Shown: piece by piece, positions 4,791-55,163 of the stretch
How positions within the stretch are numbered: the stretch's first letter is position 1
Layout of the letters: every line of letters begins with the position of its first letter
Assembly: GCF_036785885.1 (NCBI RefSeq)
Contig: NC_092320.1
Coordinates: 13,827,557-13,891,556 of the forward strand
Source: Coffea arabica
Lineage: Eukaryota > Streptophyta > Magnoliopsida > Gentianales > Rubiaceae
Direction of reading: 5' to 3'
Length of the DNA: 64,000 nt
Made by a program: the position numbers and the translations under genes
Notes under the pieces: model-generated
What the model was told of the DNA's origin: nothing
The model's input: the letters and a program-made list of their open reading frames with translations, nothing else
The model's database searches: none

Positions 4791-6028
4791 GGGCAAATTA
4801 TCCAATTGGCCCTTGAACTCTTTGCTTAGGTAAAAATAAACCCCTCATCTATTTTTTGCTGATTTTAAGCCCTCGAACTTGTAAAATTGGGCACCTATGA
4901 CCCTTTTAGCCAGTTTCTCCGGTTTTGCAACCGGAAGGCCAATTCACACGAATGTCGGTGTGCTTCTTTAAAGGGCATTTTTGTCCGCATCTTCTAAGCA
5001 AAAAGGGAAACTCCTCCTTCTTCCCTCCATTTCTGCAAAACCCTCGCCGTAGCTTTCTCAATCGCCGCCCATATCATTCAAACCCACTTCAGAGCCTTTC
5101 TGGTTCGCAAATCGAGAACCCTCCGGCAGCTCAAGGACCTTGCTTCCATCAAGTCAACTTTCAACACTCTCAAATCTTCTGTCTCAAAGAATCTTCATTT
5201 AGATCCTCAACTTTTGTTCCGCAAAGCCTTAGGATTGCTATTCAAACTCGATTCCATTAAACCTGAAAAAATAATTTCTGGGTTAATGCTCTCAAATGCT
5301 TTTTCACTAGTGCGTCTTTCTCGAAAGTTATCGGCTCAAATGAGGCAAACAGGGAGAGAGTGGGATTTCTGTAAAGGGTGGTTGCCCCCTCTCTGTTTTA
5401 AGCCTAAGATTTCAAACGCAAGCAAACCAACAGCCCTTTGATTTAGCAGACTGCAGAAATAATTCTTGTACTTCCATTGAGGTTTCTGACAATTTCACTT
5501 TGCACCCCCCCACATGCTGAGCGCTTACTACCTCCTCCTGCTGTGGATCATGCTAAATGGCTGTCCTGTATTTACCATGAAAAGAGGCTGTGATGATTTT
5601 ATTTATTCGCAGAGCCGAGTTGGGTCAGGCAATTGAGCAAAATTGACCCGTATCTTGGCGGGGCAACCCCGGATGGCAGAATTGTTGGTACCAACCCTGA
5701 CATGCAACCGGTGCTGCAGCCATGGCGGTGTCAAAGTCTTTTGCTGACATTCCAAGGAAAGCTGAAGAAGTTGGGGGGATTTTGCAGAAATGGAGGAAAG
5801 AAGGGGGTTGTTCCTTTTTGCTTAGGAGATGTGGACAAAAATGCCCTTTGAAGAAGCACACTGGTATTCGTGTGAATTGGCCTCCCGGTTGCAAAACCGG
5901 AGAAACTGGCTAAAAGGGTCATAGGTGCCCAATTTTACAAGTTCGAGGGTTTAAAGTCAGTAAAAAATAGATGAGGGGCTTATTTTTACTTAGATAAAGA
6001 GTTCAAGGGCCAATTGGATAATTTGCCC
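4791..6028. mobile_element. Pack-MULE-like transposon with BAG-domain gene fragment
   Basis: A 1,238 bp non-autonomous element with terminal inverted repeats (TIRs) of about 250 bp (4791-5042 and about 5780-6028). The ends begin GGGCAAATTATCCAATTGG. It is flanked by a perfect 9 bp duplication, TAAGAATTA, at 4782-4790 and 6029-6037. Long TIRs plus a 9 bp TSD are the signature of Mutator-like elements. The TIRs contain the small palindrome CCGGTTTTGCAACCGG. The core carries host-derived coding sequence (see 5040-5270) and an unidentified segment at about 5570-5780. No transposase is encoded. Confidence 0.88.
5040..5270 (+). pseudogene. Captured fragment of an IQ/BAG-domain co-chaperone gene (BAG8-like)
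   Basis: One open frame inside the transposon reads through an IQ-like calmodulin-binding segment (IIQTHFRAFLVRKSRTLRQL). It continues into a helix beginning KDLASIKSTFNTLKSSVSKN and then LFKLDSIK. This order and these residues resemble the IQ plus start-of-BAG region of plant BAG-family proteins such as BAG8. There is no start codon or ending of its own. After about 5270 the frame loses recognisable similarity, and the right end of the BAG domain is missing. It is probably a transduplicated exon piece rather than a working gene. The family call is from memory; a blastx search would settle it. Confidence 0.6.
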
Positions 6029-38253: not shown

Positions 38254-42191
<3,938 letters not shown>

Positions 42192-48177: not shown

Positions 48178-51100
48178 TCAAATCCTTCTCTTGATAGTAA
48201 GGGCACGAAAGGCCCAATGAGTAGCCCAACAAAGCCTGGACCCAGGTTGCATGCCTCTGATTATTTTCTGAGTTCCCCTTGGTGGCGCTGGCACAGGCGC
48301 AGACCTGGGCATGAATCTTAGACATGTATGGAATGATTTCAACGAAGAAACCGAGATTCCAGCAGGGAACGGGGAATTCATTTGAATCTGCCGCTGTCCC
48401 CCATCACCATTTACGGAGTTCTACATGAAAACCAAGATGCTTTGTCAGTGCACTTCAAGGTTGGATCACACAAATAATAGGAAATTGTGACAGGAAAGCA
48501 CCAAAGCATGAGCAGCAACTAATAGCCCGACATCAAAAGCCATAGACACAAATGGTACACAGAAAGCAAACCAAGCCTACAAGAGGTAGGTAAATTGATC
48601 CCCCATTGTTCTTGTACTAACCAAACATAATGAACTTCCAAAGATAGCCTGATAGGGACTCAAACAAGTACCTAGTTGCTTCAGTAAAACAACAGCAATG
48701 TTGATACTGCCTGCGTCTGAATATTAGTCCACAGACAATTGCATTGTATTTTACCCAAATGACTTATGCGGTGTGTCATAGCATAAAGATCAACCTCGGG
48801 CTGTATCAGAGTGCATTGAGATACTTAACTAAAGTACACATCTGGGCAATCCGGGTTGTGGCAACTACGCAATAAAGTCTAATAACATAAAAGCAATTTC
48901 AAAACTAGATCACCATCGCTTTTGACGATCATGTGATTTAAGAGTACCTTAATTAATCTAACAATGTTCTGAGCATAAAAGCGTTCAATAAGAAATGTAG
49001 TAAAGAAATCTTTGTTGTAGCACAATGTAATGTATAAATAGCCTTATACCTTAGTCTGGGGTTATAGCATGTTAAAGCTCCTCTCATGCAAAGATTAAAA
49101 ATGCTTTCACAACCTTGTTTGATGTCTCTTTTGATATATATAGGCCAGAATTTTTGGGATAGTTTCATTCTTGAAAACATGGAACATGCAAAAGGTTGAG
49201 AAAAAGAATGTATCTTTTAAGTCAATTTACTAGAATTTCAGTTTTTAATCCAAATGGTCACTATTAACAGAAGAAAAGGAGATATTAGTTATTTATGCGA
49301 TTCCAACCTATCATCCAGTTGACACCAGTCAATTGGAGAATGTTACCTGATTGAAGTCAGACCAGCTTGACTTGGGCTGCAGTATATTGTCAAGAGCCAT
49401 ACTGAGTCTTGCTGTTACAGGGGGAAAAGGAAACAATTTAGCAATGATCCTTTTGCCCAATTGAACTCTTTCTTCACATCCTTTTGTTTAATTTAATTTC
49501 CAGTTTATCTTTCACAATCACTAATAAGTGACCAAAAAACATGTAGATGTTGACCATTTACCTGATTCCTGGAGGTTCAATCTGGTCACCATGCTTGTTC
49601 CGCCACATTGCCAGTATCAATTCAAGAACAAATAGGGTGAAGGTCAGTGATAGCTAGTATTGCATCAATACTTTATTACATTTCACAATTCACACCCTTG
49701 CGTTTAGGCAATATTTCTGCTAGATCCCTCAAATTATAAAATAAATTACATTAAGAGCCTCTAACAGACAATGGAGGACAACCTAGGCTCACCTCAGAAA
49801 AGGTTCTAGCCTAAATACCAACTGCATGGAGTAGGGAGGATGTTGTATTGCAAGATCGTGGTGGAAGCTTTGGTTTTTCACGCCCTTGATGTGGTAGCAG
49901 AAAAAATTTAATAGGAATAGTTTCACGAACTAATCCAAAAAACAAATCAGGAGTTGATACATGATAGTACCCCAAAAGGAAAACCAAGATTCAACAAGAA
50001 TCCCATCTAGATTCAACAAGAATCCAACCTTGTAAACACTCAAGAAAAGGAAAAAAATCCAATGCAGAAGTATTAAAATTTTAATAATAATGTCAAAAGC
50101 TGTCCAAATAAATCCTAGGAACACTTATTTATGGGCCTTAAGTATTATAAATTGAAAAGGAAAGAAAATACACTTGAAATCGGCAAAAACGAATAAAATC
50201 AGAATAGCAGCCACCTTAGAATTTCTTTAGTGTGTTGCAGATCTGCATAGCAGATCCAAAAGGGGAGTCTCAGCCCCCAATCTGCAGCTGGACCTGATCT
50301 GCATGCGGATCACTTTTAGAAACAGATCCTGCACTATTTTTCCTTCCTTCTTCCTTCATGTACTCCTTTGTCGACAATTATAGCTAATAATAGGAAAACT
50401 AAATAAAAATAACTAAAAATACTAATCAAAACTATGAAAACTACCCTAACTAAGAATCCTAAAACGGCACCTTGGGCGGCTTTATTGATACGGACTACGG
50501 ACAACGGATTAATGAATCTAGGATCCTTGTTCGGGATCAGCCACAAGTGGCCCCCTCGAGGGTGATGGCTTTTGGGCCCATGGCAACATTTTAATTTTCC
50601 CCAAATTTCAGATCTTACTACTTTTGTCATTTAAAACTTTCCAGAAAAAGTCCCAAAACTTACATAGGCGCAATTATTTTCTCAATGGAGGCCAATTGGG
50701 TAAAACTTCAGGGGTAAATACTGTGAAAAAAAATAAAAATGGTAATCTTACCAAACACAAGCTAGGTGATGGCACTAAAAAGAACAAGAATTTTTCATAG
50801 AATCATGAAAACGAAGAAGCATATAAAACTACCTATATAATGCTTGCCAACTTATATCAGACACATCAATGTCCTCCGTCTTCAAAGCAAACCCCAAATC
50901 TGAGCAAACAAATCACATTTCGTACAACGATGTGTGGTGGTATATCATTCTGAAAGAGAAAGAAAGCTTACTTAAGTTCAAGATGAATAAGAAAAAGTAG
51001 TGGTACCAAAATAAAGTGCTGGAAATGCATACCCCAAGTGCAATGAAGTAGCGAAATCTATCAATGGGACCGCCAGCCTTATCAAAAACATTAAGCATCA

Positions 51101-53366
51101 ATCCCATAGAACCTATTGCATCTTTCATTTGCCTGCACCTGTTCAACTCCTCATTATGGGCAGTACCCATTAACTTAACCTCTTGATCAAGTAATAAAGC
51201 TAATTCTTTTAGGATGCACTGCCCAATAAAGGATCCATCAACACTGTTATCAATAGCCGGAGCAAGTAATTTTTCCCTAGCAACCAACAATAGAGCAACT
51301 AGCTCAACAAGTCTCCCCTCATGAACATTTGAGGAACTTATCACCTGCAACTCTTCAGTATGCAAGGCCAGCAGTTTTAAGGTCTCCAATGGCTCTGCCT
51401 GTCAAAAGGGATAACCGATCAAAAAGGTGAACAGCATTCCTATACTAGTTTAACGACATACAATTGTGACAGGTGAAAAGGTTTAAAGAAAGAAGGGAAA
51501 GACGGAAGCACCATTTCCGGCAGGCAAAAAATATAAATTAGCTTGAAGATCGATTTATTGGGACTCCAATCACGCAGGAATGGATGACAGCCTATTGCCT
51601 CAAGTGCCACACTTAGGGGAGCTTTCCACTATATCTTGACCCATGAACGCTGCAAGGAAGGGAAGTTAAAGCTCCATGCTTCAGAAAAACATCTGTAAGG
51701 CCGCAACATAAATTTTCAGCTGCATAGTGCAATGGGTAAAACCCACATTTGAGCGTCACATTAAGATCCACAGATAGTCCAGTCTTTCCTTCCAGCAATG
51801 CCGTGGCACAAGCTAATGCTTGGTGGGAACATATCCACATCAGCACATCCTTTGAGTCAAGTACACTTTCGTTAGTCACAAAATTCTTCTTTTCCAACAC
51901 CCTTCTAACCAACGAAACAAATCGAGACTTATTATCAATCCGAATAAGATCTTCAACTTGCTTATGCAACCTAAGTGCTTTCTCACAGTTGTATTTCTGC
52001 CATATCAACAGAAGCTGGTAAAGATACAAAAGGGGGAGAGAAACAAAGGAAAAAAAATGACCAAGGAGTACTTTATTTGCACATAGTATTCTACCACCAT
52101 CCAAGATGAATAAGAACACCTACCTACTTCAAAAGAATTTTGTAGATGTCATTGCATATTCAAAACCATGCAAGAAGTCTTTACACTTTTGAAACGGCCT
52201 ACTACCTAAACATCTTGCACATACTGGGGAAAAGAAAAACTAGGATGCAACAGAAAAGCTACACTACATTCCTAACAATGCAAATAGGTTCAACAAGAAA
52301 GCAGAACTACTGAGGACAACAACCCACTCATTCGCTAACCTTGCCAACTCATTGGAACCAACAAAAGTATGACTAGGAAAGCAATCAGCAGATGACACAA
52401 ATAACCTCACGAAGGATCAGAAATGATATCATCTCAAACATATATGTTCCTAACTTACAAAGTGAACTTCGGTCTTTTATTTCTTTCAAGGACACCTGTT
52501 ACACACTCAAACATATGCTTATTTCCATGTTTAGGTTACTCTAAATTCCAAATCATGGATAGCTTATGAAGACCACAGCATATAAGTGCAAACAATGCTC
52601 GTACCAGTAGTACAGAGTTGTGGACAGATCCATTATATAGATTATACAAGAGTACGTAAATTAATGCGCCTGAGCAGGAATTCAGTTACCAAAAGCAAAT
52701 TGAAGGCGAAACATGATAGTGAGACAAAATCAAGATTTAAAACACGTGCAATTAACACGAAGTTTGATGCCAAAATCAACACATGATCTGCAGTAGTTGG
52801 CAAAAAAAATAACCAGAGTTCTGTCTTTAATAGTATACTCTTCTTGGGAGAACAATTTAGAATGACTTTTTTCATAACGTGCTGCTCTGGAAATTGAACC
52901 CGGAGAAATTCTGTTCTAAATAGATTTTCTCTTCTGTTGTCCCAGAAAAATAATAGAAAAGAAAAACATTAAAAGTAACTTTTTTTCCACCCAATTCAAT
53001 GTACTGCCCTGAAAATTGAATTCGAACAAATTTTGCCTAAACAAATCCTCTTTTCTTTCTTTTTTCCATACACAAAAACAGAAAACAAAAGCGTGAAAAA
53101 TTACATCTTTTTCAGCTAAAACTACAGAAGCTAATTGCAGCATTTTTTTTTTAAGCACACAAAAGGTGGGGCTGGACAAACAATTTCCTTTTTGTTTCTC
53201 AAGTGTCTTGAAAGCATATTATTTCTCCATTTTTATTTTTTCTGTTCCTCAAAAGAAATTTAGCAATAGACAGAAAAACAGAAAATAAGGAAAGCAAGAG
53301 AGTGAAAATACCACATAATCAAGCATGTTGACCTCTCAGACTTAAGACTCAGCTCCTGTGAAGCTC
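48178..53366 (-). CDS. Ankyrin-repeat family protein gene, with frameshift (possibly pseudogene)
   Basis: Exon blocks on the minus strand: 53366-53312 (start MLDYV at 53326), 51996-51512, 51398-51033, 50899-50833, 49653-49562, 49407 to about 49346, and 48420-48178 (stop). Block 2 includes EDLIRIDNKSRFVSLVRRVL and the ankyrin-type GFYPLHYAAENLCCGLTDVF with LKHGA. Block 3 is helical and Leu/Glu-rich. The last exon ends in a basic tail. Block 2 is 485 nt, one base short of the phase its neighbours need, and the frame breaks at a run of four G at 51616-51619. Beyond it a conserved-looking frame resumes (SVALEAIGCHPFLRDWSPNK). Phases of blocks 4 and 5 also do not fit perfectly. The protein would be cytosolic with unknown role. 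It resembles Arabidopsis ankyrin-repeat family proteins. Confidence 0.6.
49680..50640 (-). repeat. Possible retrotransposon-derived segment in an ankyrin gene intron
   Basis: On the minus strand, 50400-50440 and the flanking bases read like the T-rich TTTTTAGTTATTTTTATTTAG 3' portion of plant LTR retrotransposons. A GC-rich stretch (50520-50580) precedes it. AGATTCAACAAGAATCC is tandemly repeated at 49988-50026. I could not define LTR ends or a TSD, so this is tentative. Confidence 0.25.
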
Positions 53367-53674
53367 CTAAGGAAAAAGTGAAAAATCAGGGTGTTCTATG
53401 TTATCAGAAAGCAAACCTCAAAGAAACAAGGGCAGAAGACTGAAAATAAGGGCAAATTATCCAATTGGCCCTTGAATTTTTTGTCTAAATAAAAATAAGT
53501 CCCTCATCTATTTTTTTGTTGACTTTAAGTTCTCGAACTTGTAAAATTGGACACCCGTGACCCTTTTAGCCAGTTTCTCCGGTTTTGCAACCGGAAAACC
53601 AATTCACAAGAATGCCAATGTGCTTCTTCAAAGGGCTTTTTTGTCTGCATTTTCTAAGCAAAAGCGAACAACTA

Positions 53675-54458
53675 TGCTTAATCCGGAGATCCTGCGCCCT
53701 ACTCCCGCTATCAGAGCCAGATCCAAACGATGAGTTATGCTTAACCCGCCTCAGTGAATCCCTTCAAGACCCATTAAAGAACCTCCAAAACTGGAGCAAA
53801 GCTACCTTCAGTAAGTCTTGCCAAGGCTTCACCTCCTTCCTCCAAGGCTCCACCTGCAACAACAGTCGGGTTTACAAACTCTCCCTAAAAGGCTCCATCT
53901 CCCCCAATATCTCCAGCTGTACTAATCTCCAAGCACTCGGCCTTTCCTCCAACGCCATCTCCGGCCCTATCTCCCTTGACCTCCAATACCTCGTCAATCT
54001 TGCTGTCCTGAACCTCTCCTCTAACCGCCTTTCCGGCCCAATCCCTCAACAGCTCACTCTCTGTGCCTACCTTAATGTGATCGATCTCCATGATAACCAA
54101 CTTTCCAGCCTCATCCCTCAACAGCTAGGATTGCCGGCCCACCTCTCGGTTTTTGATGTTTCGAATAGCAAGTTGTCGGGTCCGATACCCTCGTCCTTAG
54201 GAAATAGGAGTGGGAACCTGCTGAGGTTTAATGCGAGCTTCTACGAGGGGAATAAGGATCTGTACGGGTACCCATTGCCGCCGATGAGGAGCAAAAGGCT
54301 ATCGGTTCTGACCATTGTGGGGATCGGATTGGGAAGTGGGAAGTGGGTTGTTGAGTCTGGTGCTAAGCTTTACAGCTATTTACGTATGGTTGAAAATTTT
54401 GAAGCAGAAAATGGATGCTGAAGAAGGCAAAATTAGTCAACTCATGCCGGATTACTGA
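53675..54458 (+). pseudogene. RLP44: Captured RECEPTOR-LIKE PROTEIN 44 copy, frameshifted
   Basis: RLP44 is an intronless leucine-rich-repeat receptor-like protein of the plasma membrane that links cell-wall pectin state to brassinosteroid signalling. This copy keeps part of the signal-peptide end, then [20 protein letters not shown], LRRs with [26 protein letters not shown] and [17 protein letters not shown], and the juxtamembrane [18 protein letters not shown] frameshift near 54335-54345, beside a GGAAGT duplication, moves the transmembrane segment ([16 protein letters not shown]) and the tail KISQLMPDY into another frame, ending at 54458. The upstream ATG at 53585 lies in the TIR, so a chimeric 278-residue protein lacking a membrane anchor could be read. 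Assignment is from memory of RLP44; the match is strong. Confidence 0.85.
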
Positions 54459-54519
54459 TTCAACCTCTTTTTTTGTTCTCTCTTGAATTCTTCTTTTTGT
54501 TAAAAAAATATATTATTAA

Positions 54520-54907
54520 TGGAGCTGCCACTAAGAATCAATGGCTGGATAGGATTGGATGGAACTTACAGGTATGTTTAGGGAGATGGTGTTAGTATTG
54601 GTAGTAAGTTAGCTGTAGTAGTAAATTTTAGTGGCGATGATTGTGGCGGTGCTGACTATGGAATTGTCCCCCGGAGACAACTATGGCGGTCTCGCCGAGA
54701 CCAACGGCTGCAATGGCATTTCCACTTGGAGGTTTGGACGAGAATAGTGTTTTAGCGGCTAATTTTGATAGGACTGATGTCCAGAGTGGGGGAGAATTGG
54801 GTAGTCGAAGGAATAGCTATGACTATGCTAGTGGGGAGATTCCTAAGAGCGGTGGTATCACTCTCCTGCAGAGAATGAGGAGAGAGAAAGCGGCGGCAAC
54901 GAGGGTT
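54520..54907 (+). other. Unidentified core segment of the RLP44 transposon
   Basis: It is GC-richer than its surroundings. The frame at 54683-54979 begins MAVSPRPTAAMAFPLGGLDE and runs into the right TIR. It may be a second captured fragment, but I do not recognise the donor gene. Confidence 0.4.
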
Positions 54908-55163
54908 TTGCAGAAATGGAGGGAAGAAAGAGGAATTGTTCCTTTTTTTCTTAGAAAATGCAGACAAAAAAGTTTTTGAAGAAGCACACTGACATTCGTG
55001 TGAATTAGTCTTCCGGTTGCAAAACCGGAGAAACTGGCGAGTCACGAGTGTCCAATTTTACAAGTTCGAGAGCTTAAAGTCAGCAAAAAAATAGATAAGG
55101 GACTTATTTTTATCTAGACAAAGAGTTCAAGGGCCAATTAGATAATTTTGCCCCTGAAAATAA

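Follow-up and report, generated by a model that had tools for sequence, protein, structure and literature searches.

Positions 53450-55153 of the window, by which we mean the whole 64,000-nt stretch of Coffea arabica DNA that was analysed, are occupied by a Mutator-like element of 1,704 bp whose inverted ends measure ~210 bp. The element carries most of the coding sequence of the receptor-like protein RLP44, and its features are collected in Table 1.

The remainder of the window contains several other features. A probable two-exon BAHD acyltransferase gene at 38254-42191 has the Pfam domain Transferase in both open frames. This is a paralog of the hydroxycinnamoyl transferase HCT, and its best PDB matches are 4g0b and 4g22, which we take to be Coffea canephora hydroxycinnamoyl transferases. 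The small nucleolar RNA snoR103 is found on the minus strand at 2224-2329 (98.1 bits, against a gathering score of 50). About 1.3 kb to the left of the element there are two long open frames on the minus strand (50913-52119), one of which has an ankyrin-like match (Ank_2, E 6.3e-05, below the curated cut-off). The element may sit 5′ of a gene at this position.

Table 1. Features of the RLP44-bearing element, in window coordinates.
Feature	Position	Strand	Remarks
Left target site duplication	53440-53449		CTGAAAATAA, same 10-mer as 55154-55163
5′ terminal inverted repeat	53450-53671	+	Aligned with the 3′ repeat; contains the ATG at 53612
Chimeric ORF, 269 aa	53612-54421	+	20 repeat-coded residues, ~7 of junction, RLP44 to the frameshift, out-of-frame tail
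Captured RLP44 coding sequence, signal-peptide end to stop	53693-54458	+	Start of homology judged by eye; stop in the shifted frame
In-frame five-residue loss in an N-terminal-side leucine-rich repeat	53877-53893	+	From protein alignments and sequence
Tandem 7-bp duplication	54331-54347	+	GGGAAGT twice; frame shifted before the transmembrane segment
Internal segment	54459-54883		Perhaps 3′ flank of RLP44 or a different captured fragment; no Pfam match for the overlapping 98-aa ORF and no protein match at E<=1
Subterminal sequence common to the second element (4791-6028)	54884-54947		blastn 85.9% over 64 columns against 5059-5000
3′ terminal inverted repeat	54945-55153	-	Aligned with the 5′ repeat
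Right target site duplication	55154-55163		CTGAAAATAA, perfect 10-bp match to the left

The element and its ends

The inverted ends found by alignment agree with the bounds originally predicted for the element. In local alignment 53450-53671 pairs with the reverse complement of 55153-54936, while blastn aligns 53450-53663 with 55153-54945 at 88.8% identity over 215 columns. Terminal repeats are present as predicted, with a length of ~210 bp by alignment. A target site duplication of 9-10 bp had also been proposed; it is a perfect 10 bp. Two 10-mers taken at random from the 64-kb window were identical in 10 of 200,000 draws. The ends are assigned to the Mutator superfamily from the length of the repeats and the size of the duplication. 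For Mutator-like elements (MULEs), PMC4858842 accepts duplications of 9-11 bp, and those of 7-8 bp under stricter matching. No Pfam match to a transposase was found in the two plus-strand ORFs of at least 60 aa within the element, which were the frames scanned; the minus strand has a 68-aa ORF in addition.

A second element, at 4791-6028, shares these ends and is flanked by a perfect 9-bp target duplication (TAAGAATTA). One of its frames includes an IQ-like stretch (Pfam IQ, E 0.017, below the curated cut-off) reminiscent of BAG-family chaperone regulators. The K2P distance between the two end repeats of the RLP44-bearing element is 0.099 over 208 columns, with 15 of the 19 substitutions being transitions. 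This is smaller than the distances between its ends and those of the second element (0.136-0.161); the two ends of the latter differ by 0.076. Provided that the two ends started out identical upon insertion, the element would not be recent.

A second captured gene was considered for 54459-54944 and rejected. The overlapping 98-aa ORF gave no hit in Pfam at E<=1, and the 3′ part of its region is the subterminal sequence common to the second element. A padded protein search with this region gave no match at E<=1 among 178 candidates of ~184-586 residues, so that a gene of other size may have been missed.

The captured RLP44 and its probable sister in Coffea eugenioides

The ATG predicted to lie inside the end repeat is that at 53612. 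It is the earliest ATG of the element on the plus strand and begins the chimeric ORF, the product of which has 269 residues in place of the 278 originally proposed. Of 1,447 candidates in a protein search with this ORF, 642 matched at E<=1e-3, and the top 120 of these are listed. Many of the named proteins among the matches listed are receptor-like protein 44, others being e.g. the inactive LRR receptor-like kinase BIR2. The best match, P0001, is annotated as 'receptor-like protein 44 [Coffea eugenioides]' (E 4.1e-128, 85% identity, 88% query coverage). Together with the inverted ends and the 10-bp duplication, this match bears out the proposal of a Pack-MULE with a captured RLP44, and the protein search and alignments confirm that the capture starts where the signal peptide ends and extends to the stop.

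Between the repeat ATG and the shift the frame has remained open for ~240 codons. A frameshift just before the transmembrane segment had been predicted, and its cause is the tandem GGGAAGT duplication at 54331. Beyond this point the C-terminus can be read to LMPDY-stop in a different frame. The 7-bp shift also takes away the RLP44 tail from the window copy. In PMC8572011, conserved phosphorylation sites in the tail of Arabidopsis RLP44 are described as required for function. The in-frame loss of five residues from a leucine-rich repeat is a further feature, beyond those first listed.

The N-terminus of P0001 is unlike that of the other aligned RLP44 proteins. Its first 20 residues correspond to the repeat-coded peptide (16/20 identical), and the protein alignment has an identical junction after this peptide in P0001 and the window copy. 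On comparison of residues 1-20 with the window in six frames, the best matches were the four repeat arms of the two elements, with 16, 15, 14 and 11 of 20 residues identical; the next-best stretch matched at 8/20. Capture by a Pack-MULE is strengthened as an interpretation because P0001 carries the same repeat-coded N-terminus. P0001 retains the transmembrane segment and tail, and is intact over 285 codons. The best 19-residue hydropathy is 2.22 in P0001, equal to that of P0003 (a close relative on a short branch), compared with 1.32 in the window copy. Since P0001 shares the junction yet keeps the transmembrane segment and tail, we infer that the frameshift that frees the protein of its anchor came later and is peculiar to the window copy; the GGGAAGT duplication would be absent from both P0001 and P0003. 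Most likely the chimera predates the split of the window copy and P0001, and was originally in frame throughout. P0001 is known here from its protein; it is very likely the sister of the transposon-borne chimera and not a true RLP44 gene.

Use of residues 1-48 of P0001 as query returned only P0001 itself at E<=10, among two candidates. This search covered proteins of 0.55-1.75 times the query length that share exact words, so the leader could still be present on other genes. No relatives of P0001 were found in viral contigs.

A frameshifted RLP44-like copy is also found in P0002, a 901-nt ENA contig. It groups with P0001 in the tree (99/92), but has a signal peptide of the native type, with V at the usual position of the start Met. 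The two signals conflict: the junction unites the window copy with P0001, the substitutions unite P0001 with P0002. Possible explanations are gene conversion, a further capture or chimerism of the contig.

Constraint on the protein, and what the copies might do

We defined 123 columns that are conserved in at least 95% of the 118 other homologs among the matches listed. Here 14 substitutions and 3 gaps are seen in the window copy, compared with 0 to 7 substitutions in the 118 homologs; the window copy has not kept the conserved residues expected of a functional RLP44. P0001 has 9 substitutions and P0002 has 19, where the shifted stretch of the latter is counted in.

Differences were then counted relative to P0003. 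Those of the window copy fall at conserved columns in 12 of 19 cases, close to the chance expectation of 10.8. The corresponding values are 8/16 for P0001 (9.1 expected) and 8/17 for P0002 (9.6 expected). By contrast, six control homologs, chosen by hand, gave 0/7, 3/16, 3/23, 1/20, 1/16 and 1/28, although the homologs used to define the columns (118, or 117 for the P0003 comparison) include these controls, which somewhat favours them. Division of the differences by branch gives 8/11 at conserved columns for those private to the window copy (6.2 expected), 4/5 for P0001 (2.8 expected) and 4/6 for P0002 (3.4 expected). Those common to all three are 3/6 (3.4 expected), and those common to P0001 and P0002 are 1/5 (2.8 expected). 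The pattern in the window copy fits a loss of constraint, on small numbers, while the branch shared by P0001 and P0002 leans the opposite way and leaves room for constraint there.

The tree comprised 28 rows, i.e. the three focal sequences and 25 chosen by hand from a pool of 118 (117 listed homologs and P0003), with P0002 cut at its frameshift here, though left uncut for the conserved-column count; support is weak for 15 of its 25 inner branches. The window copy has an end branch of 0.086, compared with 0.0054 for P0003, but this branch is not long beside those of the other RLP44 rows (median 0.074).

The original prediction suggested that a soluble LRR fragment, or its RNA, could interfere with the parental RLP44. 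As a protein this would be the 269-aa product, secreted as a decoy. The reading frame is uninterrupted after the ATG in the repeat, and both anchor and tail are lost through the shift. RLP44 interacts with BRI1 and BAK1, according to PMC9571070, and given such partners a free LRR part could compete. The leader was judged by hydropathy; its maximum 11-residue value, over the first 35 residues, is 1.60. For 118 homologs with a start Met the median value is 2.69, and 6/118 are below 1.60. The repeat-coded start of P0001 scores 2.07, and that of the second element 1.02. Moreover, five leucine-rich-repeat residues have gone and near-invariant residues are altered in the window copy, and its differences from P0003 reveal no constraint. 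A secreted decoy is very unlikely because the leader is weak, the repeat is damaged and no constraint is visible; with the loss of the anchor confined to this one copy, this part of the prediction is not supported.

Instead, the captured segment might give rise to transcripts or small RNAs that silence RLP44 or its close paralogs. This route demands no protein constraint, and the captured part is close to RLP44 at the protein level. There is also a precedent in rice, where 24-nt small RNAs map to the ends and internal sequence of MULEs, as stated in PMC4858842. However, the end repeats have diverged (by the K2P distance given above), which would weaken a hairpin, and we regard an effect of this kind as quite unlikely.

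A different possibility is that the chimera is a working, membrane-anchored variant of RLP44 in C. eugenioides, of which the window holds a dead copy. The uninterrupted 285 codons of P0001, its transmembrane hydropathy equal to that of P0003, a leader more hydrophobic than that of the window copy and the single change in five at conserved columns on the branch shared with P0002 are all consistent with this. Taken in total, however, the differences of P0001 from P0003 fall at conserved columns at about the expected rate, near-invariant residues are altered (G69C, S107L and N209K), and a gene model is not proof of a protein. We therefore consider a working variant unlikely. Very doubtful, in our estimation, is the further idea that a MULE end repeat has served in coffee as a ready-made first exon, providing promoter, ATG and a weakly hydrophobic leader for a membrane-anchored P0001. 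If this were true, P0001 would be a transposon-born receptor-like protein that C. eugenioides still has intact and that the window copy has lost.

A probable decaying Pack-MULE and its relation to known systems

The explanation we prefer, with a probability of roughly 0.82, is that the element is a decaying Pack-MULE without protein function. A non-autonomous Mutator-like element would have taken up the part of RLP44 that lies between the end of the signal peptide and the stop, with the ATG of the end repeat in frame with the captured sequence; this anatomy is observed. The same chimera appears, at the protein level, as the C. eugenioides gene model, with transmembrane segment and tail intact. 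The window copy would afterwards have acquired the 7-bp duplication, lost the five repeat residues and changed at conserved positions at about the chance rate, an order of events that we infer.

The end repeats with their perfect 10-bp duplication, and the second element, which shares these ends and has a perfect duplication of its own, argue for this explanation, as do the identity of the captured gene and the match of P0001 residues 1-20 to the repeat arms. So do the excess of substitutions at the 123 conserved columns over the listed homologs, the near-random placing of the differences from P0003 (far lower proportions being seen in the controls) and the end branch that is long relative to P0003. 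Against it are the ~240 codons that are still open in the window copy and the intact frame of P0001, the low power afforded by 19 differences, the deficit of conserved-column changes on the P0001/P0002 branch, and a window end branch that is unexceptional among RLP44 rows.

We found no paper on this element in the open-access literature, nor any on Coffea eugenioides together with receptor-like protein 44. In a search of that literature for Pack-MULE and Coffea neither term occurred in any title or abstract, and there was no coffee study among the matches listed for Mutator-like and Coffea canephora. What is new here is that P0001 of C. eugenioides, on comparison with the window, starts with a transposon-repeat peptide. 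This provides an example of a Mutator-like end repeat giving an in-frame start to a nearly complete receptor-like protein. The annotation of P0001 as RLP44 could misdirect studies of receptor genes in coffee. Should the chimera be transcribed, it would offer a compact test of whether gene captures gain function.

RLP44 itself is a receptor-like protein that acts in brassinosteroid and phytosulfokine signalling. The captured segment resembles the gene from the end of its signal peptide to LMPDY-stop. Unlike RLP44, the window copy lacks the native signal peptide, has the transmembrane segment and tail out of frame, is missing five leucine-rich-repeat residues and shows no sign of constraint; a functional RLP44 would be expected to have its signal peptide, LRRs, transmembrane segment and tail all in a single frame, and the window copy does not.

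Pack-MULEs are a well-known class of non-autonomous Mutator-like elements that carry captured fragments of host genes. Our element is like them in its ~210-bp inverted ends, the 9-10 bp target duplications, the absence of a visible transposase, and a captured segment that is richer in G+C (0.497) than the ends (0.377 and 0.368). We see no essential difference from the class, and the element looks like an ordinary decaying gene capture. For a Pack-MULE it is noteworthy that almost the whole coding sequence has been captured, and that the end repeat contributes an ATG in frame with it.
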